In this document: piece after piece, positions 14,292-33,510 of the stretch
Position numbering within the stretch: the stretch's first letter is position 1
Layout: each line of letters begins with the position of its first letter
From: Verrucomicrobiaceae bacterium
Lineage (GTDB): Bacteria; Verrucomicrobiota; Verrucomicrobiia; Verrucomicrobiales; DEV007
DNA length: 34,454 nt
Reading direction: 5' to 3'
NCBI GenBank assembly: GCA_012719225.1
Contig: JAAYAT010000046.1
Coordinates: 1 to 34,454 of the forward strand
The notes under the pieces: model-generated
Seen by the model: only the letters and a program-made list of their open reading frames with translations
The model's database searches: none
What the model was told of the DNA's origin: nothing
Translations under genes and position numbers: made by a program

Positions 14292-15779
14292 ATGACCCGG
14301 CTCGCCGCAGCGGTCCGGGTCGGACTCCTCGCGGCGGCGGCTTTTGTCGGCGGTTGCGAATCCCTTTTCCCCCCCGACGCCAAGCATCACACCCATCTCG
14401 GGATTCCGCCGCACTGGATCGCCGGCGACGCCCCTCTCCCGACCCATTTTCCCGATCACGACTGGGTTGCCGCCTTCGGAGAGCCGGATCTCACCGCCTT
14501 TGTCGGACGTGTCATGGAGGAAAATCGCGATCTCAAAGCGGCCCAATCGCGCATTGAGATCGCCGGAGCCAACGCCCGTATCGCCGGGGCCGACCTCTAC
14601 CCCCGACTCGACGGCTCTTTCTCGGGGCAACGCAACGCTCAGAATTTCATCGGGTTGCCCCTGCCGGGGGTTCCTCCCGACACGATCCTGTCTTCCCAGA
14701 GCAATCATTTCGGTCTCTCACTCGATCTGCAATGGGAGATCGATCTCTGGGGCCGCATCCGGGCGGCGCAATCCGCCGTCGTGGCGGAGTTCGAAGCCTC
14801 GGGCTACGATTTTGCGACCGCGCAACTCTCCCTCGCGGGACAGGCGGCCAAGACCTGGTTCGCCCTCGCCGAAGCGAAGGATCAGGTCGCCCTGGCGCGG
14901 AATGCGATCGCCACCTTTTCCGAAACCGAATCCGCCATCCGGGAGCGGTTCGAACGGGGCATAGAGGACGAGGGGCGGAACCCGGCCTCCCAACTGCTCC
15001 TCGCCCGGGCCGATGTCGCCAACGCCCGCGAAAGCCTCGCCGCCCGCGAAGAGTTGGTGGGACGCGCCGCCCGTCAGCTTGAGATCCTCGCGGGGGGGTA
15101 TCCGAACGGTGCCGCCGGGTCGTCCGCCCGGCTCCCCGAAATGCCGGGGAAAGTGCCCGCCGGTCTGCCCGCGACCCTGCTCGACCGCCGTCCGGATCTC
15201 GCCTCGGCCGAGCGACGTATCGCCGCCGCCGACAAGCGGCTCCTCGAAGCGAAACGATCCCTCCTCCCCGCGATCCGCCTCACCGGCAGCTACGGACACG
15301 CGAGCGAAGATATCAGCGACATCCTCAACAACGACTTCAGCGTGTGGAATGTCGCGGGCAACCTCGCCCAGCCCATCCTCCAGGGAGGTCGGCTCCGGGC
15401 CAACATTGCGAAGCGGGATTCCGAACTCGAACTCGCCGCCGCCGAGTTCGAGCAGGCCGCCCTGACCGCGTTCTCCGAGGTGGAAAACGCCCTCGCCGCC
15501 GAAACTTTCCTGACGCGCCGCGTGGACGCCCTCGAGAACGCGTCGCGTCTCGCCCTCGCCGCGTATCGCCGCTCGCTGGAGGAATTCGAACGGGGGACCG
15601 GAGATTTCCTCACCGTCCTCACCTCGCAGCAGCGGCTGTTCACGAGCCGCGCCCAATCCATCGGTATGCGCCGCCAGCGTCTCGACAACCGCGTCGACCT
15701 CTATCTCGCTCTCGGCGGCAGTTTCCAACCCGCCGAACCTTCCCACGCAACCGCAACCGCAACCGCAACGAAACCATGA
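14292..15779 (+). CDS. outer-membrane efflux lipoprotein (TolC/OprM/NodT family)
   Basis: This is the trimeric outer-membrane channel of a tripartite RND efflux pump. It has 495 residues from the ATG at 14292. That start gives a lipoprotein signal, MTRLAAAVRV...VGGCE, with the lipobox Cys near residue 22. The track start at 14148 is a TTG that adds 48 residues without a signal; an ATG at 14262 is also possible. AAGGAGG sits 14 bases upstream of 14292, further than usual. The two OEP repeats are visible: HFGLSLDLQWEIDLWGRIRA with AAKTWFALAEAKDQ, then LPATLLDRRPDLASAERRI, LPAIRLTGSYG, GGRLRANI and TAFSEVENALAAE. The stop overlaps the fusion-protein ATG (ATGA), so the pump genes are translationally coupled. 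Confidence 0.93.
   Translation: MTRLAAAVRVGLLAAAAFVGGCESLFPPDAKHHTHLGIPPHWIAGDAPLPTHFPDHDWVAAFGEPDLTAFVGRVMEENRDLKAAQSRIEIAGANARIAGADLYPRLDGSFSGQRNAQNFIGLPLPGVPPDTILSSQSNHFGLSLDLQWEIDLWGRIRAAQSAVVAEFEASGYDFATAQLSLAGQAAKTWFALAEAKDQVALARNAIATFSETESAIRERFERGIEDEGRNPASQLLLARADVANARESLAAREELVGRAARQLEILAGGYPNGAAGSSARLPEMPGKVPAGLPATLLDRRPDLASAERRIAAADKRLLEAKRSLLPAIRLTGSYGHASEDISDILNNDFSVWNVAGNLAQPILQGGRLRANIAKRDSELELAAAEFEQAALTAFSEVENALAAETFLTRRVDALENASRLALAAYRRSLEEFERGTGDFLTVLTSQQRLFTSRAQSIGMRRQRLDNRVDLYLALGGSFQPAEPSHATATATATKP
15746..15769. repeat. 6-bp tandem repeat CGCAAC x4
   Basis: Four perfect copies of CGCAAC lie at the 3' end of the efflux channel gene and encode an alternating Ala-Thr tail. 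They end six bases before the next gene's ATG, so they form that gene's ribosome-loading region. A copy-number change would stay in frame. Confidence 0.8.
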
Positions 15780-16957
15780 AACGTTTTGCGAGATTTGTCA
15801 TCGGCCTGCTGATCCTCGCGGGCGGCATCGCTTTTTCCATGCTCCTCTGGGTGACTCGTCCGCAGGCGGAGAAGGCCGACACCGAAGAGACCCTCCCGCT
15901 CGTCGAGGTTCTCCCGGTCCGCTATGAGGAAATGAGCTTCGACATGCCCTCGCAGGGTCTCATCGAGGCATCGCGCAGAACCACCCTCGCGGCCGCCGCG
16001 GCCGGCCGGGTGGTCGAAGTCCACCCCCTCTTCGATGTCGGGCATCGCGTCGACGCGGGCACCTGGCTGGTGAAAATCGACGCGGTAGATTACCGTGCCG
16101 ACCTCGCCGCCGCGACCGCCACTCTCGCCGACGCGGAGACGAATCTCGCCGAGGAACAGGCCCGGGCAGAGCAGGCGAAGCGCGACTGGGATAACCTCGG
16201 TCGCCCCGGCGAACCCTCTGAACTCGCCTCGCGACAACCGCAGTTGCGCGGTGCCGAGGCGCGGGTCGAAGCGGCCCGCACCGCCCTCCGGAAAGCCGAA
16301 GGCGATCTGTCCGACACCGTCCTGACCGCTCCCTTCGACGGCATCATCGCCGCCACCTCGACCGAAGTGGGCAGCTACCTCACCGAGGGCGCGGCGGTCG
16401 CTGAGATTTTCGAAACCCGCTACGAAGTGCGTCTGCCGCTCTCGGTGGACCAATTGCCGTTTTTGCAAACCGGCGAAAACGGCAACCTGCTCGGGGAGGT
16501 GGTCCTGCTCGCCAGCGTCGGCGGGGAAACGAAGGAATATCGCGGACGCATCGTGCGGACCGAAGGCGAGATCGACCGATCGAGCCGCTCCGCCTACGTT
16601 GTCGCGGAAGTGGATGGCGGCAGCGATGGGGCGCAGGCGCACCACCGGCTGCGTCCGGGACTTTTCGTGCAGGCGCGGATCGCCGGCCGCACCCTGCCCC
16701 GCTGTGCCCGCATCCCCTTCTCCGCCTTCGTCGGACTCGAACGAGTCGCCCTTGTCGCTCCCGACAATACCCTCCAGTTTCGCGATGTCACCGTCGTCCA
16801 CCGGGACGAAGAGAGCGTCTACATCTCGGGCGGAGTGGAGGAGAACAGTCTCGTTTGCCTCACCGAACTGCCCGCCAGGATCACCGGCCAAAAAGTCGTG
16901 CCGCGCCCTGTCGCGGACGGCGGCGACGAGGAACCCGCCCCCCAACCGGCACTGTGA
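15776..16957 (+). CDS. RND efflux periplasmic adaptor (membrane fusion protein)
   Basis: The adaptor joins the inner-membrane RND pump to the outer-membrane channel. It has 393 residues from the ATG at 15776, which overlaps the previous stop as ATGA. The longer track ORF from 15344 is a shadow of the channel gene. The N-terminal anchor (about 8-27, VIGLLILAGGIAFSMLLWV) stays in the inner membrane, since no lipobox is seen. A lipoyl-type half (AAGRVVEVHPLFDVGHRVDAG) is followed by a coiled-coil hairpin rich in Ala/Glu (about 105-180). The second lipoyl half (LTAPFDGIIAATSTEVGSYLTEG), a beta-barrel and a membrane-proximal domain follow. Its stop overlaps the pump start (TGATG). Confidence 0.93.
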   Translation: MKRFARFVIGLLILAGGIAFSMLLWVTRPQAEKADTEETLPLVEVLPVRYEEMSFDMPSQGLIEASRRTTLAAAAAGRVVEVHPLFDVGHRVDAGTWLVKIDAVDYRADLAAATATLADAETNLAEEQARAEQAKRDWDNLGRPGEPSELASRQPQLRGAEARVEAARTALRKAEGDLSDTVLTAPFDGIIAATSTEVGSYLTEGAAVAEIFETRYEVRLPLSVDQLPFLQTGENGNLLGEVVLLASVGGETKEYRGRIVRTEGEIDRSSRSAYVVAEVDGGSDGAQAHHRLRPGLFVQARIAGRTLPRCARIPFSAFVGLERVALVAPDNTLQFRDVTVVHRDEESVYISGGVEENSLVCLTELPARITGQKVVPRPVADGGDEEPAPQPAL

Positions 16958-19900
16958 TGGAGGGAAAAGGTATCATCCACTGGTTCAGCCGGAACCACGT
17001 CGCGGGGAACCTGCTCATGGTTCTGGTGATGGTCTCCGGCCTGATGACCTGGCCGAAGCTGAAGAAGGAAATCTTTCCCGAGACCTCGATCCATGCGGTG
17101 CTCATCACCGTCCCCTACCCCAACGCCACTCCCGAGGAGGTGGAAAAAGGTATCCTCATCCCCATCGAGGAAGCGATCCAGGATCTCGACGGGATAGACG
17201 CGATCCGCTCGACCGCAGCCCAGGGGATCGGCACGATCACGGTGGAAGCGGAGAGCACCTATGATGTCCGCGACGTCATGGACGACATCAAGAGCCGCGT
17301 CGATGCCATTCAGAATCTCGCCGAGGAAGCGGAGAAAGCGACCCTCTCGGAGTTGCTCATCAAGGCGCAGGTCATGAGTATCGCCGTCTCGGCCGACACC
17401 GACGAGACGACCCTGCGCGAACTCGCCGAGCGGATCCGGACGGGATTGATCACCTTCAAGGGCGGGGAGTCTCGGGTGACCCAGGCGGTTCTCGCCGGCG
17501 TGCGCGACTACGAGATTTCGATCGAGGTCTCCGAGACCACGCTGCGCCAGTATGGCCTCACTTTCGACGAGGTCGCGGCGGCGGTGCGAAGCTCCTCCCT
17601 CGACCTTCCGGGTGGTTCCGTCAGGACGAAAGGTGGCGAGGTCATGATCCGGACCGAGTCCCGCCGCTACACCGCCGAAGAATTTTCCCCCATCACCGTG
17701 ATCACCCGTCCGGACGGCTCTGTCGTCACTCTCGGCGAGATCGCCGTGATTCGCGACGGCTTCGAGGAGGAGGAGATCGAGTCCCGCTTCAACGAGACCC
17801 CCGCCATCCTCATCAATGTCTATCGCGTGGGCAACGAAGACACCATCCAAATCGCGAACACCGTCAAGACCTACGTCTACGATGTCGCCCCCGAGACCCT
17901 GCCCGCAGGCGTTTCTCTCGAGATTTGGAAGGACGACTCCGCCTACCTCTCGGGCCGCCTCGATCTGCTCGCCAAGAACGGGATTTTCGGACTCATCCTC
18001 GTCACCCTGGTCCTCGCCCTGTTTCTCCGGCCCAGTCTGGCGCTCCTCGTTGCCCTCGGGATCCCGGTGTCTTTCGCCGGTGCCATCGCGACGATGCCCT
18101 ACCTGGGCATCTCGCTGAACATGATCTCGCTCTTCGCCTTCATCCTCGTGCTCGGGATCGTCGTGGACGACGCCATCATCGTGGGGGAGAACATCTACCG
18201 CCGCATCCGTGGCGGCGAACATCCGCGCGACGCCGCGCCCCTCGGGACCAAGGAGGTCGGCGTGGTCGTGACCTTCGGGGTTCTCACCACGATGGTGGCC
18301 TTCACCCCCATGCTGGGTCTCAGCGGAGTGAGTGGGAAAATCTGGCCGAACATTCCCCTCGTGGTCATCCCCACCCTGCTCTTCTCGCTCCTCCAGTCGA
18401 AACTCGTCCTCCCCGCGCACCTCGCCCTCCTCAAGCCCGCCAGCGAGAGGAAGGCACCCGGACCCATCCTGCGGTTCCAGCACCGCATTTCACGCGGACT
18501 GGAGCGCTTTGCCGAGGGGGTCTACCGGCCCGTCCTCGCCCGCGCCCTCCACTTCCGCTACCTCGTTCTGACGGGGTTCCTCGTCCTGCTGCTCGTGAGT
18601 TTCACCACGGTGAGTTCGGGCTGGCTCCGCTTCGTCTTTTTCCCCGAAATCGAAACCGACGTGGTCATCGCCAAGGTGAAATTGTCACCCGGGGTCGCCT
18701 ACGAAAAAACCGCTTCGGTGGTCCGGCGGATGGAGGAGAAAGGCGCGGAGCTGGAGCGGTTTTTCCAGGGCCGGGAGGGTCGTCCGATGATTCGCAACAT
18801 GCTCACGAGCATCGGGACACAACCTTTTCTCGAAGATATCTCGGGGATGGGAGGCGGCCCACCCCGATCCTCCAACATCGGCGAAGTCATGATCGAGATG
18901 GTCCCGGCGGCGACCCGCGATTTCACCGCAGCGGAAGTGGTCTCGAAATGGCGCGAACTCGTCGGACCCATCCCCGGTGCCGTGGAGCTGACTTTTTTCT
19001 CCGAATCCGCCGCCGGCGGCAACGCCATCGACCTCGAGTTGGTCGGCGACGATCTCGACAAACTCGAAGCCGCCACCGAAGCCACCAAAGCCGCCCTCGA
19101 GAGTTTCACCGGGGTGATCGACATCAGTGACTCCAACACCGAAGGCAAACGCGAATTGCAGCTGAACATCCGCCCCCGCGGAGAGGCCCTCGGCCTGCGA
19201 CTGGACGATGTCGCCCATCAGGTCCGGCAGGGATTTTATGGAGAAGAAATCCAACGGCTGCAACGGGGAAAAAACGAGGTCAAGGTCTTCGTCCGCTACC
19301 CGAAAGCGGAGCGCAAGTCCATCGCTGACCTGGAGAACATGAAAATCCGCACACCCGATGGTGTCGAGGTGCCGTTTTCCGAAGTCGCGACCGCCACCTT
19401 CGGACGTACCTACGCGGCCATCCAGCGGACCGACCAGCAGCGCGCCATCCGGATCACCGCCGACGTCGACAAGACCATCGGAACCAATGCCAACGAGGTC
19501 GTCGCCGCACTCACCGCCGGCAGTGTCGAGCGCAGCCGGGCGCGGCAGTGGCGGGTCAATATCGCGAACTGGTTCCGTGAGCGCCGCGGGCTCGAGCCTC
19601 TTCCCGAGCCCGAAGCGGGCCCTCTCCTCGAAATCATCCGCCAATATCCCGGCGTTTCCTACAGCTTCGAAGGCGAGCAGAAGGACCAAGCCCAGTCGCT
19701 CGAAGAGATCGGGGAAAAATTTATCCTCGCGTTGCTGGGAATGTACGTCCTCCTGGCCATTCCGCTGCGGTCCTACGTCCAGCCTTTCATCGTCATGTCA
19801 GTGATCCCTTTCGGTCTCGTCGGAGCCATCGCCGGGCACCTCCTGCTGGGGTTCCCTCTAAGCATCATGAGCCTGTGCGGGGTCGTGGCGCTCGCCGGGG

Positions 19901-20238
19901 TGGTGGTGAATGACAGTCTCGTTCTCGTCGATTATGTCAATCGCCGCGTCGCGGACGGCAGATCCCTCTACGAGGCCGCCTGCGAAGCGGGTGCGGCACG
20001 GTTCCGCCCCATTCTGCTCACCTCCTTGACAACCTTTGTCGGGCTCATGCCCATGGTTCTGGAGACGGATATCCAGGCCCGGTTTCTCATTCCCATGGCG
20101 GTCTCCCTGAGTTTCGGGATTCTCTTCGCCACAGTCATCATCCTCCTCCTGGTGCCCTGCATCTACCTGATGCTCGACGATCTCGGCGCTCGTTGGCGGT
20201 TCTCCCGGAAGTCGCCCGGAAAGGCCACCACCGATTGA
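16957..20238 (+). CDS. RND efflux pump, AcrB/HAE-like inner-membrane transporter (first system)
   Basis: This is a proton-driven exporter and the core of the tripartite pump. It has 1093 residues from the ATG at 16957; the track start at 16855 lies inside the adaptor gene. The N-terminal helix (NHVAGNLLMVLVMVSGLMTWP), the YPNATPEEVEKGI porter motif and the LGIVVDDAIIVGENI helix are clear. Asp404-Asp405 match the paired proton-relay aspartates of AcrB. The second half repeats the fold, ending with VVALAGVVVNDSLVLVDYVN and FRPILLTSLTTFVGLMP. An extra ~35-residue Arg-rich segment (about 855-888, ending GLEPLPEPEAG) interrupts the usual run between the second porter domain and PGVSYSFEGEQ. Substrate is unknown. 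Confidence 0.95.
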   Translation: MEGKGIIHWFSRNHVAGNLLMVLVMVSGLMTWPKLKKEIFPETSIHAVLITVPYPNATPEEVEKGILIPIEEAIQDLDGIDAIRSTAAQGIGTITVEAESTYDVRDVMDDIKSRVDAIQNLAEEAEKATLSELLIKAQVMSIAVSADTDETTLRELAERIRTGLITFKGGESRVTQAVLAGVRDYEISIEVSETTLRQYGLTFDEVAAAVRSSSLDLPGGSVRTKGGEVMIRTESRRYTAEEFSPITVITRPDGSVVTLGEIAVIRDGFEEEEIESRFNETPAILINVYRVGNEDTIQIANTVKTYVYDVAPETLPAGVSLEIWKDDSAYLSGRLDLLAKNGIFGLILVTLVLALFLRPSLALLVALGIPVSFAGAIATMPYLGISLNMISLFAFILVLGIVVDDAIIVGENIYRRIRGGEHPRDAAPLGTKEVGVVVTFGVLTTMVAFTPMLGLSGVSGKIWPNIPLVVIPTLLFSLLQSKLVLPAHLALLKPASERKAPGPILRFQHRISRGLERFAEGVYRPVLARALHFRYLVLTGFLVLLLVSFTTVSSGWLRFVFFPEIETDVVIAKVKLSPGVAYEKTASVVRRMEEKGAELERFFQGREGRPMIRNMLTSIGTQPFLEDISGMGGGPPRSSNIGEVMIEMVPAATRDFTAAEVVSKWRELVGPIPGAVELTFFSESAAGGNAIDLELVGDDLDKLEAATEATKAALESFTGVIDISDSNTEGKRELQLNIRPRGEALGLRLDDVAHQVRQGFYGEEIQRLQRGKNEVKVFVRYPKAERKSIADLENMKIRTPDGVEVPFSEVATATFGRTYAAIQRTDQQRAIRITADVDKTIGTNANEVVAALTAGSVERSRARQWRVNIANWFRERRGLEPLPEPEAGPLLEIIRQYPGVSYSFEGEQKDQAQSLEEIGEKFILALLGMYVLLAIPLRSYVQPFIVMSVIPFGLVGAIAGHLLLGFPLSIMSLCGVVALAGVVVNDSLVLVDYVNRRVADGRSLYEAACEAGAARFRPILLTSLTTFVGLMPMVLETDIQARFLIPMAVSLSFGILFATVIILLLVPCIYLMLDDLGARWRFSRKSPGKATTD

Positions 20239-20244
20239 CCGAGC

Positions 20245-20273
20245 ACAAACGGGAACATTTCATAAGCGTTTGT
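20245..20273. repeat. inverted repeat ACAAACG/CGTTTGT
   Basis: Perfect 7-bp arms are separated by 15 bases in the 69-bp gap between the RND pump and the SulP gene. The right arm overlaps the proposed -35 box TTGTCA. That placement would suit an operator; alternatively it is a weak hairpin closing the pump transcript. No T-run follows. Confidence 0.45.
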
Positions 20274-20298
20274 CATTTCTTCCGTCGGGTCGGATACT
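20270..20298 (+). promoter_or_regulatory. candidate sulP promoter giving a near-leaderless mRNA
   Basis: TTGTCA (five of six matches to TTGACA) and GATACT (four of six to TATAAT) are separated by exactly 17 bp. The -10 hexamer ends nine bases before the ATG at 20308, so transcription should begin within about three bases of the start codon. No Shine-Dalgarno precedes the ATG, which fits. Confidence 0.45.
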
Positions 20299-20307
20299 AC
20301 AGCGAAC

Positions 20308-22131
20308 ATGAGACGATTCCGCTGGCTGATACGACGACTCCTGGGGGGTGCCCGGGAGTTCGTCAGGGAGAATTCGATCGATCCCCTCCCCATCCGCCGC
20401 GGGTTTCGCGGCTACCGGGCCTCGCACCTACGCGCCGACGCGGCGGCGGGATTGAACGTCGCCCTGCTCGCCTTCCCCCAGGGCATGGCCTACGCCGCCA
20501 TCGCCGGTCTCCCCATCAAATACGGATTGGTCACCGGAGCGGTCGCCGCCATCGTCGCGCCTCTCTTCGCCGGATCGAGACATACCATCCTCGGACCGAC
20601 CAACGCGACGGCTTTCATGCTCTTCGCCAGCCTGGCCTCTTTCGCCGCTCCAGAGAGGCTTTTTTATCTCCCGCTCCTCGTCCTTTTCATCGGAGTCCTC
20701 CTCGTCATCGGAGCTTTTTTCCGGGTCGCGGAACTGGTCCAGTACGTGAGCCGCTCGGTGGTGGTCGGCTACATCACCGCGGCGGCGGTGCTCATCATCG
20801 CCAACCAACTCGCCCATCTCCTCGGAATCCAGATGCCCGAGGGCGTCTCGGGGGAAACGAAAACCTTCTTCACCATCCTGCAGGGCACGTTCTCGGCGAT
20901 CGACACGATGCGATGGGAGGCCGTCGCCCTCGCGGCGGGGACCTTCGTCCTCTGGCATTTTCTCCACCGCCGCCTCCCCCGCCTCCCTGTCTTCGCGATC
21001 ACTCTGGTCGCCATGTCAGGACTCCACGGACTGCTCCGGCACCACGCGGGATGGGATCTCGCCACCTTCGCTTCCTTCTCCATCGCCGATCTCGCCCCGC
21101 AGTGGCCGCAGATCAGCTCGCGGGGATTTTTCGCCGATGTCAGCCGTCTCATCGGGATCGCTTTTTCCATCGCCTTCCTCGCCGCGCTGGAAAACTCCGT
21201 CATGTCCAAGTCCCTCGCCAGCCGGGTCGGCGGACGCCCCGATGTCAATCAGGACATGCTCAGCGTCGGCATCGCCAACATCGCCTCGTCCGTCACCGGC
21301 GGCATGCCCGCCTCCGGTTCCCTGACCCGCTCGGCGCTGAACTTCAGCAGCGGATCGGCCTCCCGGCTCTCCAGCATCATCAGCGGGCTGCTCTGTCTCG
21401 GCGGACTCCTCGTCCTCGGCGACTTCATGGATCACGTGCCGAAGTGCGTCATCGCGACGCTCGTCGTCTGCATCGCCACCTCGGTGATCAACCGCCACCA
21501 CATCCGCATCTCCCTCTACGCCACGTCGGAGGACGCCGCCGTGCTCATCACGACCTTCCTCAGCGCCCTCGTCATGCCGCTGAACATCGCGATTTTCCTG
21601 GGGGTCGGCATTTCCATCGTCCTCTATCTCCGCGCCGCCAGCCAGCCATATCTGACGGAGTACGAATTCTCCGAAGAGGGGGAGCTGCGCGAGGCCGGGG
21701 AGAAACGCGCCCGCCCCATTCCCGCGATTTCCATCGTTCACGTGGAGGGCGATCTGTTCTTCGGCGCGGCCGAACTGTTCCGCACCCAGATCCAGAAAAC
21801 CTCTCTCGATCCCGATCTCCGGGTGATCATCCTGCGCCTCAAGAACGCCCGCCATCTCGACGCCACCAGCGTGGTCGCCCTCGAGGAGATGGTCCATTTT
21901 CTCCGCAAGCTCGATCGCCACGTCATCATCAGCGGCGCGACCAAGGATGTCTACCGCGTGCTCCGGAACGCCGGGTCGGTCGAGGTCATCGGACGCCGCA
22001 ATATTTTCCTGAACCACCCGCGCAATCCGAACCTCTCGACCCGAAACGCCCTGATCCGGGCACAGGAGTTGCTTGGCACGACGGAAGCGGATATACGCAT
22101 CTTTTACGATCCCAATTCCAAGAAAAAATAG
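20308..22131 (+). CDS. SulP (SLC26) family anion transporter with STAS domain
   Basis: This inner-membrane carrier handles inorganic anions; the family includes sulfate, bicarbonate and other substrates. It has 607 residues. The transport domain starts with DAAAGLNVALLAFPQGMAYA and AGLPIKYGL, then LAGS-like FAGSRHTILGPTNATA, all standard SulP signatures. About 10-14 hydrophobic segments run to residue ~440. MPASGSLTRSALNFSSG matches the conserved SulP loop. A STAS domain occupies about residues 470-580 (HVEGDLFFGAAELF, VIILRLKNARHLDATSVVALEEM). It lies between two RND systems and has a likely promoter of its own. Sulfate versus bicarbonate cannot be decided by eye, and no sulfur-assimilation or carbonic-anhydrase gene is nearby. 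Confidence 0.94.
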   Translation: MRRFRWLIRRLLGGAREFVRENSIDPLPIRRGFRGYRASHLRADAAAGLNVALLAFPQGMAYAAIAGLPIKYGLVTGAVAAIVAPLFAGSRHTILGPTNATAFMLFASLASFAAPERLFYLPLLVLFIGVLLVIGAFFRVAELVQYVSRSVVVGYITAAAVLIIANQLAHLLGIQMPEGVSGETKTFFTILQGTFSAIDTMRWEAVALAAGTFVLWHFLHRRLPRLPVFAITLVAMSGLHGLLRHHAGWDLATFASFSIADLAPQWPQISSRGFFADVSRLIGIAFSIAFLAALENSVMSKSLASRVGGRPDVNQDMLSVGIANIASSVTGGMPASGSLTRSALNFSSGSASRLSSIISGLLCLGGLLVLGDFMDHVPKCVIATLVVCIATSVINRHHIRISLYATSEDAAVLITTFLSALVMPLNIAIFLGVGISIVLYLRAASQPYLTEYEFSEEGELREAGEKRARPIPAISIVHVEGDLFFGAAELFRTQIQKTSLDPDLRVIILRLKNARHLDATSVVALEEMVHFLRKLDRHVIISGATKDVYRVLRNAGSVEVIGRRNIFLNHPRNPNLSTRNALIRAQELLGTTEADIRIFYDPNSKKK

Positions 22132-22221
22132 ATGCCCTCCCGGCGGAATGTGTTCTCCTTACCCCAGCCCGCCACACTCCCGACGCCCCCGAGTTCCGCC
22201 CCGTCCGATCGAATCCTTGCA

Positions 22222-23373
22222 ATGACCCGCCCCACCGCCTTCGTTCCCCCGCCCCGTCGCAGACCCCACAGGCGCCTTTTTCCCGCTCTTTGCCTTCTCG
22301 CGCTGTCCGGCGCGACTTCGTCCGCCCTCGCCGCCGAGGCCCCCGCGCGGGTCCTCACGGTGCGGGCCGAAAAGGCCGAAGGGCTCCTCCAGACCGTCTC
22401 CCTCACCGGAACCGTGACCGCACGACGCGAGGCGAGGCTTTCTTCCCGCGCCACCGGTCTGGTCATGGAAATGCGTGTCGAGGAAGGGCACCTCGTTGAA
22501 AAGGGGGATGTCCTCATGACCCTAGACACCGATCTCGCGGAAATCAGCCTCGAAGAAATTCGGGCGGAGATCGCCCGCAGCCGCATCCAGCTCGAGGAGG
22601 CCAAGCGGCAGGAGGAGGAAGTCCGCGAACTCGCCAAGACCGGTGGCTTCCCCAAATCCGAGGCCGAGAGCCGCAAGTCCGCGGTCCTCGTCGGCGAAGC
22701 CACTTTGCAGCAACTCCTCGTCCGCGAACGCGAGCAGGTCGAGCGGATCGCGAGACACCGCTTGGTCGCGCCTTTCAGCGGAGTAATCAGCCGCAAACTC
22801 ACCGAAGAAGGCGAATGGGTCCCCACCGGCACTCCGGTCCTCGAACTCGTCGAAACTGAAAAACCCCGTTTCGATCTCCAGGTGCCGCAGGAATTCCTCA
22901 CCCGTGTCTCCGACGCGGAGAAAGTCGTCGTCCGGCTCGACGCACATCCCGACATCCCTCTCGAGGCCCATATCGCCACGATGGTCCCGGTCAAGGACGA
23001 GGTCTCGCGCACCTTCCTCACCCGTCTCGAATTCGACGGCGAGAAAGCCCTCGCCGCACCCGGCATGTCGGGAACGGCGGAGATCTTTTTCCGCCCCCGC
23101 GACGGCGAGACGGTCCGGATTCCGCGCGATGCGGTGGTGCGCTATCCCGACGGAAAGATCAAAGTCTGGGTGGTCTCCCGGAACGGGGAAGAGGCCCTGG
23201 TGCGATCGCGCGACATCGAGACGGGAAGCTCCCTCGGAGAGTTCACCGAAGTGCTCTCCGGTTTGGAGGGCGGGGAACAGATCGTGCTGAAGGGCAACGA
23301 AACCCTCCGCGAGGATCAGGCCGTCACCCCCGCCGAAGCCACCGGGGAGAAAGTGTCCACGACGACGCCCTGA
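22222..23373 (+). CDS. RND efflux periplasmic adaptor (second system)
   Basis: This is the membrane fusion protein of a second RND pump. It has 383 residues from the ATG at 22222, which gives a long basic n-region and a cleavable signal (RRLFPALCLLALSGATSSALAA). The track start at 22132 directly abuts the sulP stop and adds 30 unlikely residues. Lipoyl halves are visible (SSRATGLVMEMRVEEGHLVEKGDVL and HRLVAPFSGVISRKLTEEGEWV). They flank a short Glu-rich coiled hairpin, followed by a beta-barrel and C-terminal domain (IPRDAVVRYPDGKIKVWVV). It precedes its pump by 5 bp. It differs clearly from the first adaptor in sequence and in using a cleaved signal instead of an anchor. Confidence 0.92.
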   Translation: MTRPTAFVPPPRRRPHRRLFPALCLLALSGATSSALAAEAPARVLTVRAEKAEGLLQTVSLTGTVTARREARLSSRATGLVMEMRVEEGHLVEKGDVLMTLDTDLAEISLEEIRAEIARSRIQLEEAKRQEEEVRELAKTGGFPKSEAESRKSAVLVGEATLQQLLVREREQVERIARHRLVAPFSGVISRKLTEEGEWVPTGTPVLELVETEKPRFDLQVPQEFLTRVSDAEKVVVRLDAHPDIPLEAHIATMVPVKDEVSRTFLTRLEFDGEKALAAPGMSGTAEIFFRPRDGETVRIPRDAVVRYPDGKIKVWVVSRNGEEALVRSRDIETGSSLGEFTEVLSGLEGGEQIVLKGNETLREDQAVTPAEATGEKVSTTTP

Positions 23374-23378
23374 GCGAT

Positions 23379-26300
23379 ATGATGGACCATATCCTCAAAA
23401 ACGGCATTCTCGTGACGGTTCTCGTCGCGATGATCCTGCTCCTCGGGATCGTGGCGGCGACGCGGGTCCCCGTGCAGATGATCCCGGATCTCGACACCCG
23501 CATTATCTCCATCAACACCCGTTGGCCCGGCGCGACCCCGCAGGACATCGAAAAGGAGATTCTCATCGAGCAGGAGGAATACCTCCGCGGCATCCCCAAT
23601 ATCAAACGCCTCACCGCCCTCGCCTCGACCGGCCGGGCCGAGGTCGAACTGGAGTTTCCCTTCGGAGTGGATGCCAACGAAGCTCTCCTCGAAGTGAACA
23701 ACGCTCTCAGCCAGGTCCCTTCCTACCCCGAGAACGTCGACGAACCCGTCCTCAGCAGCGATTCTTTTTCCTACAATCCCTTCCTCTCCTTCCGCATCGT
23801 TCCGCTGCCGGGCAATCCGCAAAATCACGAGATCAACATGCTCCTCGACTACGTCGATGACAACATCCGCCCGGCTCTCGAACGCATCGAGGGCGTCTCG
23901 CAAGTCCGTCTCGGGGGCGGCGCGGAGCGCCAGATCCGCATCCAGGTGGACGCCGCCAAACTGGCCGAACGCGACCTCTCCCTCACCCAGGTCCGGGAAG
24001 CGATCCGCGCCCGCAACATCGACATCTCCGCCGGCGATCTCGACAGCGGCAAGCGACGCTACCTCATCCGCACGGTGGGACGCTTCCGCTCTCTCGACGA
24101 ACTCGACGATCTCATCCTCGTGCGCCGGGGGGATTCCGTGACGCGACTGGGCGACGTCGCCGCGATCACCCTCGAGCACGCCGAGTTGCGCAACCTCTCC
24201 TTCTCCGACGGCGACGCCAACATCCGGGTGAGCCTGATCCGCCAAACCGGCTCCAATGTCATTTCCATCAAGGAGGCCGCCCTCCCCGTGGTGGAACGCC
24301 TCAACGAGGATCTCCTCCATCCGGCCGGACTGAAAATGGAGGTCAGCAACGACGACGTCCGCTACGTGGAAAACTCGGTCCGGAACGTCGTTCAGAATAT
24401 CCTCATCGGCGTGCTCCTCACGACCTTCGTGATGTTCCTTTTTCTGCGCTCGGCTTCGACGACCTTCATCGCCATGTCGGGCATGCCTCTCTGTATCGTT
24501 GCGGGCTTCATCGGATTGCTCCTCCTCGACCGCACCATCAACGTCATCTCCCTCGCCGGGATCGCCTTTGCCATCGGCATGACTGTGGACAACACCATCG
24601 TTGTCCTCGAGAGCATCGAAATCCAGCGGCAAAAGGGCAAAAGCCGCTTCGAAGCCGCCCGCGACGGGACCCTGGCGGTCTGGAGCGCCGTCCTCTCCGG
24701 CACCATGACCACGGTTCTGATCTTTTTGCCACTACTCTTTGTAAAAGAAGAAGCGGGACAGCTTTTTTCCGATATTGGCATCGCCATTTCCGCCTCCATT
24801 CTCGTCTCCATGCTGGTCGCCATCACCGTCGTCCCGGTGGCCTACGCCAATCTGCCCCGCTGGCTCAGACCACGCCAACCGCACATCCTCAAGCCGCCCC
24901 GGCTCCTCGTCCCCCTCACCTGGATTCTCTCCACGGCACCGCGTCGGTTCGCCTGCCTGGTCCTCACCTTCCTCTCGACGGTCGCGATTTTCACCTATTT
25001 CGTGCCGCCCGCGGAGTATCTGCCCGAAGGCGAGGAAGCCAAGGCCTTTTCCACGATGATCGCGCCGCCCGGCTACAGCCTGCCGGAGATGGAACGCATC
25101 GCCCTCGAATTGCAGGCGGAAATGCTGCCCGCCTTGGAGGAGGACCATCCGCCCCTGGAATCGGGCGAGTCGCCCATTCCCGCCCTCAGCCGCATCACTT
25201 TCATCGTCGAACCCGAGTCGATGCGGGTCATCACCGTGACCCGCGATCCGAAACACATCGACCTTTTCATGGACCTCATGACGGAGCGGTTCCGCTCCTA
25301 CCCGGGGATGCGGGCCTTCTCCACGCGGGGCTCCATCATCTCCAGCAACGACGGCGGCACCCGCGCCGTGGCCCTCGACATCAGCGGTCCCGAACTCCCC
25401 GAGATCTACGCCACAGCCCGCGAGATCTACCGACTCGCCGAACTGGAAATCGAAGACGCCCAGATCAATTCGGTGCCCTCCTCCCTGACCCTCGGACAGC
25501 CGCTACTCGAGATCCGTCCGCACTGGGAGAGACTGGAGGAACTCGGATTCCGGGCGAGGGATTTCGGATTCGCCGCCGCCGCGCTCAGCGACGGGGCCTT
25601 CGTCGATGAATTCTACCTCAACGACGACAAGATCGACATCTTCCTCTTCAGCCAGGCCGCCGACCGGCAGGCGCTCGACAAACTCGAGAGCCTCCCCATC
25701 TACACCCCGCAGGGAACCGTGATGCCCCTCGGTGCCCTCGCCACCATCACCGAGACCGTCGACACCGCCGAGATCCGCCGCATCGACGGAAAGCGCACCG
25801 TGACCCTCTACGTCATCGCCCCGCGCTCCGTCCCGCTCGAAACCGCCGTCAACACGATACGGGAAAATATCGTGATCCCCCTCCGCCAGGGCGGAGAGCT
25901 GCCTCCGGGAGTGGGCATCGACATCAGCGGCGCCAGCGACCAGCTCGACGCCACCCGCAAATCACTCGGACAGAACATGTGGATCGCAGTCCTGCTCTGC
26001 TACCTGCAACTGGTCATCATCTACCGCCACTGGGGACACCCTTTCCTCATCCTCCTGACCGTGCCTCTCGGCATCAGCGGGGGCATCATAGGACTCTGGC
26101 TGCTCAACAAAATCGGGGCCTGGCTCCCTCTCTTCGGACTCGCCCCCATCAGCCAGCCTTTCGACATGATCACTATGCTGGGTTTGCTCATCCTCCTCGG
26201 CACCGCCGTGAACAACCCCATTCTCATCGTCGAGCGCGCCGTGGAGAACTGGAAAACACACCGGCTCCCCGTCTTCGACGCCGTCCGCGATGCGATGGCC

Positions 26301-26519
26301 TCCCGCCTGCGCCCCATTCTCATGACCACCTCCACCACCGTGATGGGGCTCTCACCGCTCGTCTTCCTCCCGGGGGACGGGACCGAACTCTACCGCGGCC
26401 TCGGAGCCATCGTGCTTTTCGGCCTCGGCTTCACCGCCCTCATCACCCTGACATTTCTACCATCCCTGCTCATCCTCGTTCTGAATCTGACCGACCGCTT
26501 CCTCCCCCATCGCGAGTGA
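23379..26519 (+). CDS. RND family inner-membrane transporter (second system)
   Basis: This is a proton-driven exporter of the AcrB superfamily with 1046 residues. The start is ATG 23379, with a second ATG immediately after. Porter motifs RWPGATPQDIEKEI and LALASTGRAEVELEF, helix VISLAGIAFAIGMTVDNTIVVLESIE, and C-terminal MLGLLILLGTAVNNPILIVERAVENWK and RPILMTTSTTVMGLSPLVFLPG are clear. Only Asp404 of the usual Asp-Asp pair is present; the next residue is Asn405. Single-aspartate variants (VDN) exist in RND branches such as SwrC-like pumps, so this is probably functional. No outer-membrane channel gene accompanies this pair; it may share the channel of the first system. Confidence 0.94.
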   Translation: MMDHILKNGILVTVLVAMILLLGIVAATRVPVQMIPDLDTRIISINTRWPGATPQDIEKEILIEQEEYLRGIPNIKRLTALASTGRAEVELEFPFGVDANEALLEVNNALSQVPSYPENVDEPVLSSDSFSYNPFLSFRIVPLPGNPQNHEINMLLDYVDDNIRPALERIEGVSQVRLGGGAERQIRIQVDAAKLAERDLSLTQVREAIRARNIDISAGDLDSGKRRYLIRTVGRFRSLDELDDLILVRRGDSVTRLGDVAAITLEHAELRNLSFSDGDANIRVSLIRQTGSNVISIKEAALPVVERLNEDLLHPAGLKMEVSNDDVRYVENSVRNVVQNILIGVLLTTFVMFLFLRSASTTFIAMSGMPLCIVAGFIGLLLLDRTINVISLAGIAFAIGMTVDNTIVVLESIEIQRQKGKSRFEAARDGTLAVWSAVLSGTMTTVLIFLPLLFVKEEAGQLFSDIGIAISASILVSMLVAITVVPVAYANLPRWLRPRQPHILKPPRLLVPLTWILSTAPRRFACLVLTFLSTVAIFTYFVPPAEYLPEGEEAKAFSTMIAPPGYSLPEMERIALELQAEMLPALEEDHPPLESGESPIPALSRITFIVEPESMRVITVTRDPKHIDLFMDLMTERFRSYPGMRAFSTRGSIISSNDGGTRAVALDISGPELPEIYATAREIYRLAELEIEDAQINSVPSSLTLGQPLLEIRPHWERLEELGFRARDFGFAAAALSDGAFVDEFYLNDDKIDIFLFSQAADRQALDKLESLPIYTPQGTVMPLGALATITETVDTAEIRRIDGKRTVTLYVIAPRSVPLETAVNTIRENIVIPLRQGGELPPGVGIDISGASDQLDATRKSLGQNMWIAVLLCYLQLVIIYRHWGHPFLILLTVPLGISGGIIGLWLLNKIGAWLPLFGLAPISQPFDMITMLGLLILLGTAVNNPILIVERAVENWKTHRLPVFDAVRDAMASRLRPILMTTSTTVMGLSPLVFLPGDGTELYRGLGAIVLFGLGFTALITLTFLPSLLILVLNLTDRFLPHRE

Positions 26520-27654: not shown

Positions 27655-27698
27655 TCGCTAAATCGCTAACAGCTAAACAGCTACCCGCTAACCCGCTC
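27655..27698. repeat. short-period GCTA array at the antiporter 3' end
   Basis: GCTA(A) words recur six times with spacings alternating 8, 7, 8, 7 and 8 bp, e.g. TCGCTAAATCGCTAAC; the last copy is degenerate (GCTC). The array overlaps the last codons and TAG stop of the minus-strand antiporter gene. It fills most of the convergent gap beside the hairpin. Confidence 0.7.
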
Positions 27699-30339
27699 CC
27701 CCAACCACTTCCAAAATCTCCACCGGGGTGTGGGCCGAGAGCAGGGCTTCGCGTTTTTCGCGGTCGTTGACGAGTTTGGCGATTTGGCTCAGCAGGGACA
27801 GGTGGGTCCCGGACTGGCTCAGCGGAGTCACGAGGAGGAAAAAGAGGCGCACGGTTTCGTGCTCCATTTCGGAGTAATCGACTCCCTCGTGGGAGGAACC
27901 GATCACCACCAGGGGAGCATACAATCCCTCGCAACGGGCGTGGGGCAGGGCGATGCCGTTGCCCAGGTCGGTGGAGATTTCCGCCTCCCGCGCGAGAACC
28001 AACTCGGCGAGGTCGGCGCTGGTGAGCCCTTCCGGCAGACGGGCCGGTGACACCGCCGCGGCCAGTTCGTGGATGACCTCCTCCCGCGTGGTCGCTTGCA
28101 AGGACATGACGATGCCGCCCCGCATCACGGAGTCGGAGAGGCGCACCGGTTTGGGTTTGACCTTGGCTTTGGCGAAATCCCCTTCGACGCGGCTGAGGAG
28201 GTGTCCCCGTGTGAGGATCCCGAAGGGCACCTTGGAGTCCCCGACGTAGCAGATCGGGTCGCGCCACTCGCACATGCGGGCGAAGACGAGTCCCACCTTT
28301 TCGTCCGGCTTGAAGGAGCGAATCGGTTTGATCAAGGAAGTCCAGTCCGTGCCCGAAAAGTTGGTGAAATCCTCTCCCGCCACATACCCCACCGGCTGCA
28401 ACTGCTCGGGGTCGCATACGGGGTACATGGAGAACAGTCCGTCGGCCATCACCTCGAGAGCGGTGGCGAGGTCCATCGCGGTGGAGAGCGTTTTCACATT
28501 CGGCCAGGGAACCATGACATCCTGCACCCGAAGCGCCCGAAGGTCGGGGTAGGTCTCGATGGCCAGTTGAAAGCGGATTTCCTCCAGTTTGGTTCGGGCG
28601 AGCTCGCGATGCACGCCGGTGTCGGCGAGGACGAGACGGGCCAGCGCCACGGCGGCCTCGGCTTCTTCAAACACGGCCGAAGTCACTCCGTGCTGCTCCA
28701 GTTCCTCCCGCTCGCGCAGGTAGCGCGCCCGCACCACGATGAGGATGTTTTCATTGAGATTCCGGGCGGCGGTGATGATGGCGGCGCGATGGGCCATGTC
28801 CGGCAGGGTCACGACGAGATGGGAGGCGTTTTTGATTCCGGCCTCTTCGAGGACGCGTTCGTTGGAGGCGTCGCCGAAGACCGCGCTCTTCCCGAGGGCC
28901 TTGAGGGAGGAGACGGTGTCCATGTTCATGTCGATGATCGTGGCGGAGATCCCGGCGTCTTCGATGACCCGATGCACCGTGCGACCGACCGGCCCGTAGC
29001 CGATGATCATGGCGTAGGGCCCCTTGGGGACGGGGGCACCATGGGAGGCCCCGCTTTCTGGAAAATCGGGAGTCGCGGCGGCGGCGCGGCGCTCGGCACG
29101 ACGGTTGAGCCATTTCCACAAGGCGGGCTTTCGCTGCAGCCACGATTCGATGCGCGGCACCTGCCGGAAAAGGAGGGGGTTCAGGGTGATGGAGATGATC
29201 GCCGAGGCGACCAGCATGTTGTGGCCCGCGTCGGGCATCAGCCCGTGCTGCCTGGCAAGCTCCGAAAGGATGAAGGAAAATTCCCCGATCTGGGCGAGGG
29301 CAAGAGCCACGGTGAGGGCGGTGCGCACGGAGTATCCCAGCACCGCCACGATGAGGAGGGCCGCGATCGGTTTTACCAGCAGGATCACTCCCAGCGCGGC
29401 AAGGACCATGAGGGGTTGTTCGAGGAGAAATCTCGGATCAAAGAGCATCCCCACCGAGACGAAAAACAAGACAGCGAAGGCATCGCGCATGGGGAGCGCG
29501 TCGGCCGCGACCTGATTGGCGACGGGAGACTGCGCCACCACCATGCCCGCGAGGAAGGCCCCCAGCGCCATGGAGGCGCCGAAAAAGAAATACGAGGCGG
29601 CCGCCACCGCGATGGAAAAAACCAGCACGGTGAGGGTGAACAGCTCGCGGGAGCGCAGCCGCGCCACCTTCACCAAAATGCGGGGAACGACCCGCGCGCC
29701 CGCCCACAACACCACCAGCACGAGGACGGTGAGTTTGACCATGGCCACCCCCAGAGTCCACCAGAGGGGGCCGCTTTCCTCCGCTCCGTGGCCCGCACCG
29801 GCGACCTCCGCAGAAGGCCCGCCGTCACCGAGGACGGGAATGACGACGAGGAGGATGACGGTGAAAATGTCCTCCACGATGAGCCAACCCACCGCGACGT
29901 GGCCCTCGGGGGTGTTCAGGGCGTTGGCGTCGAGGAGCACGCGGATCAGCACGACGGTGCTCGCCACCGCCATGGCCATGCCGATGACCACTCCGGTCGA
30001 ATAGGGCATGCCGAAAGAATGGAAGAGGACCATGGCCGCGAGCGTGGCCATGATGCTTTGCCCCACCGCCCCGGGAATGGCGACATTTCGCACCGCGATG
30101 AGATCCTTGAGGTGGAAATGCAGACCCACCCCGAACATCAGGAGGATCACCCCGACCTCGGCCAACTGGGTCGCGATCCCGATGTCCCCGACGAATCCGG
30201 GGGTGTAGGGACCGATGAGGACTCCGGCGATGAGGTAGCCCACGATGGGCGAGAGCCGCATCCACTGGGTGAGCAGACCGAGCAGCCAGGCGGCGGTGAA
30301 TCCGGCGGCGACGGTGGATATCAGGGTCAGGTCGTGCAT
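27688..30339 (-). CDS. KefB-type cation:proton antiporter fused to RCK, CBS and PTS EIIA domains
   Basis: This inner-membrane monovalent cation/proton antiporter carries an unusual cytoplasmic regulatory tail. It has 883 residues from the ATG at 30339 (MHDLTLISTVAAGF); the track start is an upstream GTG. About 12-13 membrane helices (1-400) show CPA2 signatures: SPIVGYLIAGVLIGPYTPGF, LMFGVGLHFHLKDL, VGWLIVEDIFTVILL, GAFLAGMVVAQSP. An RCK/TrkA-N nucleotide-binding domain begins near 440 with IIGYGPVGRTVHRVIED. A CBS-like pair spans about 600-715 (VQDVMVPWPNVKTL, GILTRGHLL). The last ~145 residues are a PTS EIIA (fructose/Ntr) domain, with the phosphorylatable His800 in GIALPHARCEG and a normal C-terminal helix. 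It suggests that nucleotide, adenylate and PTS-phosphorylation signals meet on one antiporter. It follows guaA by 126 bp. Confidence 0.93.
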   Translation of the reverse strand: MHDLTLISTVAAGFTAAWLLGLLTQWMRLSPIVGYLIAGVLIGPYTPGFVGDIGIATQLAEVGVILLMFGVGLHFHLKDLIAVRNVAIPGAVGQSIMATLAAMVLFHSFGMPYSTGVVIGMAMAVASTVVLIRVLLDANALNTPEGHVAVGWLIVEDIFTVILLVVIPVLGDGGPSAEVAGAGHGAEESGPLWWTLGVAMVKLTVLVLVVLWAGARVVPRILVKVARLRSRELFTLTVLVFSIAVAAASYFFFGASMALGAFLAGMVVAQSPVANQVAADALPMRDAFAVLFFVSVGMLFDPRFLLEQPLMVLAALGVILLVKPIAALLIVAVLGYSVRTALTVALALAQIGEFSFILSELARQHGLMPDAGHNMLVASAIISITLNPLLFRQVPRIESWLQRKPALWKWLNRRAERRAAAATPDFPESGASHGAPVPKGPYAMIIGYGPVGRTVHRVIEDAGISATIIDMNMDTVSSLKALGKSAVFGDASNERVLEEAGIKNASHLVVTLPDMAHRAAIITAARNLNENILIVVRARYLREREELEQHGVTSAVFEEAEAAVALARLVLADTGVHRELARTKLEEIRFQLAIETYPDLRALRVQDVMVPWPNVKTLSTAMDLATALEVMADGLFSMYPVCDPEQLQPVGYVAGEDFTNFSGTDWTSLIKPIRSFKPDEKVGLVFARMCEWRDPICYVGDSKVPFGILTRGHLLSRVEGDFAKAKVKPKPVRLSDSVMRGGIVMSLQATTREEVIHELAAAVSPARLPEGLTSADLAELVLAREAEISTDLGNGIALPHARCEGLYAPLVVIGSSHEGVDYSEMEHETVRLFFLLVTPLSQSGTHLSLLSQIAKLVNDREKREALLSAHTPVEILEVVGGAG

Positions 30340-30465: not shown

Positions 30466-31986
30466 TCACTCCCACTCGATGCTGGCGGGCGGCTTGGTCG
30501 AGATGTCGTAGAGGACGCGGTTGACGCCGGAGACTTCGTTGAGGATGCGATTCGAGATTTCTCCGAGGAGTTCGTAGGGAAGATGGACCCATTCGGCGGT
30601 CATGGCGTCTTCGCTGGTAACCGCGCGGATGCTCAGGGCATACTCGTAACTGCGCTCATCGCCTTTGACTCCGACCGTCTTCGTCGGGATGAGAGCGGCG
30701 TAGGCCTGCCAGACGGAGTCGTACCAGTGGCGCTCGCGGAGCAGGTCGATGTAGATTTTATCGGCCTGCTGGATGATGGCGATCTTTTCAGGAGTGACCT
30801 CGCCGGGGCAACGCACCGCGAGGCCGGGGCCGGGAAAAGGATGGCGTCCAACGACGCGCTCGGGCAGACCGAGGACCCGTCCGAGTTCGCGGACCTCATC
30901 TTTGAAAAGGGTGTCGAGGGGTTCGATGACACGCCCCTCTTTTTTCAACTGCATGATCTGGTCGACCCTGTTGTGGTGGGTCTTGATCGTCGAGGCGCTG
31001 GAGCCGCTCGTGGCGCTCTCGATGACATCGGGATAGAGGGTGCCCTGAGCGAGCAACTCGACCTCGGAACCCACCGCGTCGAAGAAGACCTCGACGAAGA
31101 TACGCCCGATGATGCGGCGCTTTTCCTCGGGGTCCGTCACTCCCACGAGAGCGGAGAGAAACCGCTCGGAGGCGTCTATGGTCTCGATCTCTATCCCGAC
31201 TTCCGCGAAGATCGCCTGTACCTCGGCGGCCTCGTTGAGACGGAGCAGACCGGTGTCGACGAAGATGTTGCGCGTGTCCACTTCGGCCTCGTGGAGGAGG
31301 GCCGCGAGGACGGAGGAATCCACCCCGCCCGAGACCCCGCAGACGACCCGGCGTCCCGCCACCTCGGCCTGAACGCGCTCGATGAGTTCGTCTTTGAAAG
31401 AAGCGATCCGGAAAGGCGGCAAATCTTCGGCGAGGGAGAGGAAATTTTTCAAAATCCCGCTGCCCTCCTTGGTGTGGGAGACTTCGGGATGAAACTGGAT
31501 TCCGAAGAAGCGCTCGTTCCATTTCAGGGCCACGGGGATGCCGTCGAGGTTCCGCCCGATCACCTCGCATCCCGCGGGAAGGGTGCTGACGGTGTCGGAG
31601 TGGCTCATCCAGATCTGGGAATGCCCTTTCAGCCCGTTGAAAATGCCGTCCACTCCTGATTCGATCATGAGCGTGGCCGGACCGTACTCGCGGGTGTTGC
31701 CGGGGGCGACCTCGCCGCCGAACTTGCGGTTGAGAAGCTGCATCCCGTAGCAGACCCCGAGCACGGGGACGCCCAGCCCGACGAGATAATCGAAGTCGAT
31801 GTCCGGCGCGCCGGGTTCGAGCGTCGAGCGCGGCCCGCCCGAGAGGATCACCGCGGCGGGGTTGCCCGTCTCGCGCAATTCCGAGGGCTGGTAAAGCCGC
31901 GAGAAATAGCCCAATTCCCTGATCCGGCGAACGATCAGTTGGGTGTACTGGGAACCGAAATCGATGACGGCGATGGGGTGTTCCAT
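30466..31986 (-). CDS. guaA: GMP synthase (glutamine-hydrolysing)
   Basis: GMP synthase converts XMP, ATP and glutamine to GMP, the last step of guanine-nucleotide synthesis in the cytoplasm. It has 506 residues, standard for the two-domain enzyme. The class-I glutaminase has catalytic Cys79 in GVCYGMQ and His166/Glu168 in QFHPEVSHT. The ATP-pyrophosphatase loop SGGVDSS is at 219-225. The dimerisation domain ends with the conserved DISTKPPASIEWE. It lies downstream of guaB with a 69-bp gap filled by a tandem repeat, so the two are almost certainly co-transcribed. No Shine-Dalgarno exists; instead CCTCCT precedes the ATG on the mRNA strand. Confidence 0.98.
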   Translation of the reverse strand: MEHPIAVIDFGSQYTQLIVRRIRELGYFSRLYQPSELRETGNPAAVILSGGPRSTLEPGAPDIDFDYLVGLGVPVLGVCYGMQLLNRKFGGEVAPGNTREYGPATLMIESGVDGIFNGLKGHSQIWMSHSDTVSTLPAGCEVIGRNLDGIPVALKWNERFFGIQFHPEVSHTKEGSGILKNFLSLAEDLPPFRIASFKDELIERVQAEVAGRRVVCGVSGGVDSSVLAALLHEAEVDTRNIFVDTGLLRLNEAAEVQAIFAEVGIEIETIDASERFLSALVGVTDPEEKRRIIGRIFVEVFFDAVGSEVELLAQGTLYPDVIESATSGSSASTIKTHHNRVDQIMQLKKEGRVIEPLDTLFKDEVRELGRVLGLPERVVGRHPFPGPGLAVRCPGEVTPEKIAIIQQADKIYIDLLRERHWYDSVWQAYAALIPTKTVGVKGDERSYEYALSIRAVTSEDAMTAEWVHLPYELLGEISNRILNEVSGVNRVLYDISTKPPASIEWE

Positions 31987-32055: not shown

Positions 32056-33510
32056 TCAGCTGGCGGGCTGGTAGTTGACCGGCTCCTCGGTGATGGTGAT
32101 GTCGTGCGCGTGGCTCTCTTTGAGACCTCCGCTGGTGATGCGGACGAAGGTGGCGCGCTCTCTCAGCTCGTTGAGATTTTCCGCCCCGACGTAGCCCATC
32201 CCGCTGCGCAGCCCACCGAGGAGCTGGAAGACGGTGTCGGAGAGCGGTCCGCGGTAGGGCACCCTCGCCTCGACGCCTTCGGCGACGAGTTTGCCCGAAG
32301 AATTCTGGCCGTAGCGGTCTCCCGAACCCTTGCGCATCGCCTTGAGGGAACCCATCCCGCGGTATTCCTTCCAGGTCCGACCCTGGTAGTTGACGATCTC
32401 ACCGGGACTCTCGCGGCAGCCGGCCAGGAGAGAGCCCAGCATGACGATATCGGCCCCGACGGCCATGGCTTTGACGACATCCCCCGAGTAGCGGATGCCC
32501 CCGTCAGCGATGAGCGGGATCCCTTTTTTCCGACAGACCACCGAGACGTTCTGGATCGCACTGAACTGCGGCAGGCCCACTCCGGCGATGACGCGGGTGG
32601 TGCAGATCGAGCCGGGTCCGACCCCGACCTTGACGGCGGAGGCCCCGGCGGAGATGAGATCGGCAGCGCCCTCGGCGGTGACGACATTGCCGGCGACGAC
32701 GGGAGTGGAAAATTCACCGCGCAGTTTTTCAATGACCGAGAGAACCCGCTCGGTGTGCCCGGTCGCGGCGTCGATGAATACCGCGTCGGCCCCGGCTTCG
32801 ATAACTCCCTTGGCCCGTTCAAAAAAGTCCCCCCCCACCCCGATCGCCGCGCCGACGCGGAGACGACCGGTCTGGTCCTTGGCCGAGTTCAGGAACATGT
32901 CCTTTTTTTCGATGTCCTGGGCGGTGATGAGACCGGCGAGGCGACCGTCCGGATCGATCAGAGGCAGTTTTTCGATGCGATTCTGATGGAGAATGCGGCG
33001 GGCTTCGTCGAGCCCGGTCTCCACGGGCGCGGTGACGAGACGCTCGCGCGGGGTCATCGCGGAGGAAACCGGTGCCGAGTCGTCTTCGATGAACCAGATG
33101 TCGCGGCTCGTGACCATGCCGACGAGAATGCCGTCGCCGTCGACCACGGGAAAACCGTTGACCCCTTTTTCCTCCATGATCTCCTGGAGCCGGGCGAGGG
33201 AGATGTCGGCGGTGGTGGTGAAAGGATCGACAATGACGGTGTTCTCCGAGCGTTTCACCCTCGCGACCATGTCGGCCTGGTCGCCGATGGGCATGTTGCG
33301 GTGGATCACCCCGAGACCGCCTTCGCGGGCCAGGGCGATGGCGAGGCTGTCCTCGGTGACCGTGTCCATCGCCGAGGAAATGATGGGGATATTGAGCGGA
33401 ATATCGGCGGCGAGGCGCGTCGAGACATCCACTTCGGCAGGCAGAACCGCGCTGCGCTGCGGGATTAAAAGAACATCGTCAAAACTGAGACCGAGAGGAA
33501 GATCACCCAT
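32056..33510 (-). CDS. guaB: IMP dehydrogenase
   Basis: IMP dehydrogenase oxidises IMP to XMP with NAD+, the committed step to GMP, in the cytoplasm. It has 484 residues, the normal length. The N-terminus [14 protein letters not shown], two CBS domains (about 93-200), the phosphate loop and the active-site loop GPGSICTTR with catalytic Cys303 are all present. So are [18 protein letters not shown] and the flap region ([18 protein letters not shown]). The C-terminal [12 protein letters not shown] is typical. The ATG at 33510 gives the usual start. It heads the guaBA pair. The leader (CCTCCTAAATATTATCT then ATG) has no Shine-Dalgarno. Its AT-rich stretch lies so close to the ATG that a very short or absent leader is possible. 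Confidence 0.98.

Follow-up and report, generated by a model that had tools for sequence, protein, structure and literature searches.

A verrucomicrobial CPA2 antiporter fused to RCK, CorC-type CBS and PTS EIIA domains, with possible control in cis by the phosphotransferase system

The stretch of DNA analyzed here (34,454 nucleotides from a Verrucomicrobiaceae bacterium, referred to as the window) encodes a protein of 883 residues in which, from the N to the C terminus, a YbaL/RosB-like CPA2 antiporter, a TrkA_N/RCK domain, a CorC-type CBS pair and a PTS_EIIA_2 domain follow one another. The domains and the active-site residues of the EIIA, including the predicted phosphorylation site His800, are conserved among the orthologs, and the host carries phosphotransfer proteins that could act on them. 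Our best reading of these sequence data, to which we assign a probability of about 0.6, is that phosphorylation of His800 by HPr controls ion exchange in cis.

Results

The antiporter gene lies on the minus strand (27688..30339, with the ATG at 30339 and the stop at 27688), and its start codon is conserved among the orthologs. A previous sequence-only reading had given the same coordinates, which are correct; the plus-strand frame over them is not the coding one. Its proposal that antiporter, RCK, CBS and PTS EIIA are combined in a single protein was confirmed by Pfam and profile searches and by six orthologs, the domain search that it had suggested recovering Na_H_Exchanger, TrkA_N and PTS_EIIA_2 with Pfam. 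The six further four-part proteins (L040-L045, 57-75% identical to the window protein) came to light when 387 genomes of the order were searched, and belong to the window's genus and to a second family of the order. The assembly of the window genome is fragmented, with 443 contigs, and a fusion created by misassembly was therefore considered; given that the reading frame is continuous in each of the six other genomes, with L045 cut by a contig end, such an artefact is hardly conceivable.

Across 388 sampled genomes of the phylum, no close copies of the exact architecture were seen elsewhere, and among 384 genomes of the class it occurs, besides the window, only in G388 and G504. A peptide-pattern scan of genome contigs, which has low sensitivity and says little on other phyla, returned as its sole match a distant CBS from a Bdellovibrionales bacterium, and the matches from a plasmid collection were all partial and short of 80% of the CBS-EIIA query, those listed being to EIIA alone. 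A literature search found no described antiporter-EIIA fusion, which is weak evidence because subscription papers lay outside the search.

The antiporter domain (residues 17-391, 29167..30291, minus strand) matches Pfam Na_H_Exchanger with 172.5 bits. The closest family to the antiporter and RCK core is YbaL (NCBIfam NF007950; 481 bits, aligned over residues 4-569), for which the score is under the equivalog cut-off of 700 bits, and among structures that of KefC (8bxg, E 1e-36) comes closest to the core as a whole. Alignment with KefC, in which the ion site is formed by Gln155 and Asp156 (the QD motif; PMC10224563), places an acidic pair, E156-D157 (29869..29874, minus strand), at the equivalent position. 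D157 is invariant in all seven proteins, which bears out the earlier CPA2 assignment, and residue 156 is Glu in six of them and Asp in one. Because the pair is thus ED and not the QD of KefB and KefC, selectivity for K+ is uncertain, and K+ as the substrate would be a guess from the kinship with YbaL and KefC.

The RCK/KTN domain (residues 444-569, 28633..29010, minus strand) is recognized by Pfam TrkA_N over residues 444-556 with 81.0 bits and is also matched by the structure of the YbaL RCK domain (3fwz); the domain search found no TrkA_C after it. The GYGPVG motif noticed in the sequence-only reading is indeed the nucleotide-binding loop, at residues 447-452 (28984..29001, minus strand) in the alignment of the seven proteins, and the glycines of its GxGxxG pattern (G447, G449 and G452) are invariant, as is Asp470, with which the following strand ends. 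The residue aligned with KefC R516, a glutathione contact, is Phe557 in all seven, which makes glutathione gating of the KefC type unlikely in the window protein, and no Kef-type glutathione extension was recognized in it.

The RCK domain is joined by the CBS pair (residues 590-722, 28174..28572, minus strand) to the EIIA domain. In the window protein the Pfam CBS score alone falls below the cut-off (18.3 against 24 bits), and matches to CBS were obtained for all seven orthologs (best E 7e-11). A profile built from this region of the seven found CorC-type CBS pairs in the PDB (3lv9, 2e-17; 4hg0, 5e-17), with matches that span both repeats, so that the "CBS-like pair" of the earlier reading is right in its two repeats and is more exactly of the CorC/CNNM type. 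In the second repeat the adenylate motif GxxTxxD is degenerate (T710-R-G-H713, 28201..28212, minus strand): Thr710 is retained, His713 replaces the Asp, and that Asp is intact in only two orthologs, L043 and L045. The substitution makes adenylate sensing by the CBS pair doubtful in the window protein, and the suggestion that adenylates are sensed there is not supported.

The C-terminal domain (residues 735-878, 27706..28137, minus strand) is a PTS EIIA of type 2, PtsN/fructose-like. PTS_EIIA_2 (PF00359) matches residues 743-878 with 86.7 bits against a cut-off of 27, over model positions 8-140 of 144, and the claim of a complete EIIA domain bearing His800 is upheld by this near full-length match. 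His800 (codon CAC, 27940..27942, minus strand) lies within GNGIALPHAR, in the register shared with the PtsN histidine, and what we take to be the 17-residue EIIA type-2 signature of PROSITE matches at residues 785-801. The domain is matched by the PtsN structures 3urr, 4gqx, 2a0j and 1a6j and scores on fructose EIIA models as well; an identity as an EIIAGlc-type domain like that of LacS was ruled out by this class assignment. An AlphaFold2 model of the CBS-EIIA part, computed as a single sequence, had a mean pLDDT of 37 and was discarded.

Identity of the orthologs to the window protein differs along the chain, at 69-86% in the membrane part, 58-82% in the RCK domain, 33-53% in the CBS pair, which is the most divergent domain, and 47-67% in the EIIA. 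The CBS pair thus drifts between a gating core and an EIIA that are both conserved. The EIIA signature is found in all seven proteins, with R784, E785, T790 and H800 invariant, and the second EIIA histidine (H846 in the window protein) is Gln in three orthologs. A further antiporter-RCK ortholog (L046:196-1971, plus strand; 71% identity) offers a natural control: it stops shortly past the RCK domain, and a domain check of it found neither CBS nor EIIA. This indicates that the C-terminal unit was gained or lost as a block and that the CBS-EIIA part is dispensable for the antiporter-RCK core. It could also be taken, together with the loss of the second histidine, to mean that the EIIA is kept merely as a scaffold or dimerization part and that gating depends on the nucleotide at the RCK domain and, for some orthologs, on the CBS pair. 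We regard this as unlikely, since all four EIIA residues are invariant in the seven proteins, against only 13 of the 133 positions of the CBS pair.

Phosphotransfer proteins, whose presence in the genome the sequence-only reading had left to be checked, are encoded by the host: in the 97.7% complete genome, hprK, ptsH and ptsI form one cluster (L006 4047-7228). The only other EIIA of the family is a stand-alone protein with its own histidine, the gene of which adjoins argS (L007 2815-3282). EI is encoded by all seven fusion genomes and, more widely, by all twelve tested genomes with fusions or relatives, including G642, which has the ortholog without CBS-EIIA, and so its presence does not discriminate. 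The four families PTS_EIIC, PTS_IIB, EIIC-GAT and EIIA-man gave no match in the host genome, and the host PTS is therefore probably regulatory, without a sugar permease, and offers the EIIA domain no obvious role in sugar transport. An ordinary sugar-PTS role, in which the fused EIIA passes its phosphate to a sugar EIIB/EIIC, could appeal to the scores on fructose EIIA models, but with none of these families matched it is largely refuted and very improbable. Most simply, the PTS would be regulatory and have two EIIAs as its outputs, the fused antiporter among them.

With the EIIA above threshold, EI, HPr and HPr kinase encoded and His800 invariant, regulation of the antiporter in cis stands as the best inference. 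Information might also run the other way, the ion or nucleotide state of the antiporter altering the uptake of phosphate by the EIIA from HPr and thereby reporting ion status to the PTS. The intact active site would allow this, and with just one other, stand-alone, EIIA in the genome a good part of the HPr phosphate could reside on the fused domain; the known fused or bound cases (LacS and PtsN-YcgO), however, go from the PTS to the transporter, and we give this reversed flow only a small chance.

The genome also encodes a second HPr-like protein (L008:3221-3490, minus strand, on contig C349), in which Lys replaces His15 (GLKFRSAA) and a Ser46-like segment (RSILGLVML) is present, as in Bacillus Crh. 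Given these features and the HPr kinase in the genome, it could represent a regulator of the Crh kind in a bacterium that is not one of the Firmicutes.

Upstream of the antiporter gene, and on the same strand, profile matches identify guaA (GMP synthase, 30466..31986, minus strand) and, upstream of it, guaB (IMP dehydrogenase, 32056..33510, minus strand). The order guaB-guaA-antiporter is kept in two relatives from the window's genus (L055 and L057) and not in the others; a search between guaA and the antiporter gene gave no match to a promoter or terminator, which is compatible with an operon as well as with separate transcription. Elsewhere in the window, genes for RND-type pumps and membrane-fusion proteins occur in two sets (15776-26519, plus strand) around a SulP-STAS transporter (20308-22131); Yersinia RosB works jointly with an efflux pump. 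A very large hybrid sensor kinase of 1430 residues (8434-12723, plus strand), read by eye, has a repeat-rich N-terminal part followed by kinase and receiver.

The CBS-EIIA unit is found on other transporters of the same phylum, namely on CNNM (DUF21) membrane domains in six proteins (L010, L016, L036, L038, L065 and L066) and on TerC in two (L067:535-2430 and L068:523-2430, both plus strand). Their CBS-EIIA part can be aligned over its entire length with that of the window protein, whereas the membrane domains are unrelated to it and are not followed by an RCK domain. The CNNM fusions, of which L010:1474-3006 (minus strand) is an example with the order CNNM (DUF21)-CBS-PTS EIIA, gave no CorC_HlyC match in any of the six, and the EIIA stands where ordinary CorC and YoaE proteins carry a C-terminal CorC_HlyC domain. 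In L068 a second TerC-like gene, read by eye, lies directly downstream. Direct fusions of Na_H_Exchanger and EIIA without RCK or CBS are widespread in the phylum (L014, L022, L025, L028, L030, L034 and L035), although their antiporters are merely distant relatives of the window antiporter.

In a tree of EIIA domains those of the CNNM and TerC proteins group together with 100/99 support, and all 15 CBS-linked EIIA domains fall into a single group with 95/53 support. In approximately unbiased (AU) tests two other placements of the antiporter EIIAs were not rejected, one beside three antiporter fusions that lack CBS (p 0.58) and one beside the stand-alone EIIA of the host itself (p 0.36). A grouping of them with all antiporter fusions was rejected (p 0.0003). 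As alternative placements of the antiporter are thus left, the case for a single origin falls short of proof: sharing of it by CNNM and TerC is well supported by these sequences, and its extension to the antiporter is only suggested. Its occurrence on CNNM and TerC suggests a portable PTS-input cassette. Tentatively, and at less than even odds, a CorC-type CBS pair with EIIA might have been attached as such to three or more cation transporters of unrelated kinds (CPA2 with RCK, CNNM and TerC), through which a PTS without sugar permeases would act as a phosphohistidine controller of cation homeostasis in cis in this phylum.

Discussion

We propose that the window protein would be a YbaL/RosB-like CPA2 monovalent cation/proton antiporter with a built-in PTS sensor, by way of which the carbon status of the cell could act on ion exchange. 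The TrkA_N domain would bind nucleotide at GYGPVG and gate the membrane part as in Kef and YbaL, and the CorC-type CBS pair would join this RCK domain to the C-terminal EIIANtr-like domain. EI and HPr, the latter tuned by HPr kinase, would set the degree to which His800 is phosphorylated, and the CBS pair would relay the state of the EIIA to the RCK ring and so raise or lower exchange. As for the direction, unphosphorylated EIIA may be the inhibitory state, by analogy with E. coli PtsN-YcgO.

The YbaL/RosB-like proteins (E. coli YbaL and Yersinia RosB), which are the best family match, share the antiporter and TrkA_N with the window protein, and the window protein adds the CBS pair and the EIIA and scores below the equivalog cut-off. 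RosB-like proteins reportedly retain the KefC residue R516 (PMC10224563), in contrast to the Phe of the window protein. With KefC and KefB the antiporter fold and the RCK gating domain are common, whereas the ion-site pair and the R516 position differ and CBS-EIIA replaces the Kef CTD.

Closer to the proposed regulation is PtsN (EIIANtr), an EIIA of the same family as the window domain that controls K+ transport in E. coli, where it also acts on TrkA and KdpD. Another of its targets is the K+/H+ antiporter YcgO, made up of antiporter, RCK and CorC parts: PtsN in its unphosphorylated form attaches to the cytosolic region of YcgO, at the CorC part, and inhibits the antiporter (PMC11808508). PtsN is, however, a separate protein that acts in trans, and YcgO is a CPA1 antiporter, whereas the window EIIA is covalently attached. 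Models of the link between PtsN and K+ transport in E. coli are discrepant (PMC13104625), in part because PtsN acts in trans on several targets.

A covalent arrangement is known from LacS of streptococci and lactobacilli, in which an EIIA-like domain fused to a secondary transporter is phosphorylated by HPr. According to a 2023 review, no other bacterial transporter is known to be controlled directly by phosphorylation (PMC10710835). LacS differs from the window protein in that its domain is of the EIIAGlc type and its transporter carries sugar and has neither RCK nor CBS. Transporters controlled by EIIA are thus a known idea, to which a PtsN-type fusion in cis adds a new variant. If control in cis is true, it would suggest a job for PTS sets without a sugar permease, and with sensor and transporter held in a single chain, cause and effect would be testable by one point mutation.
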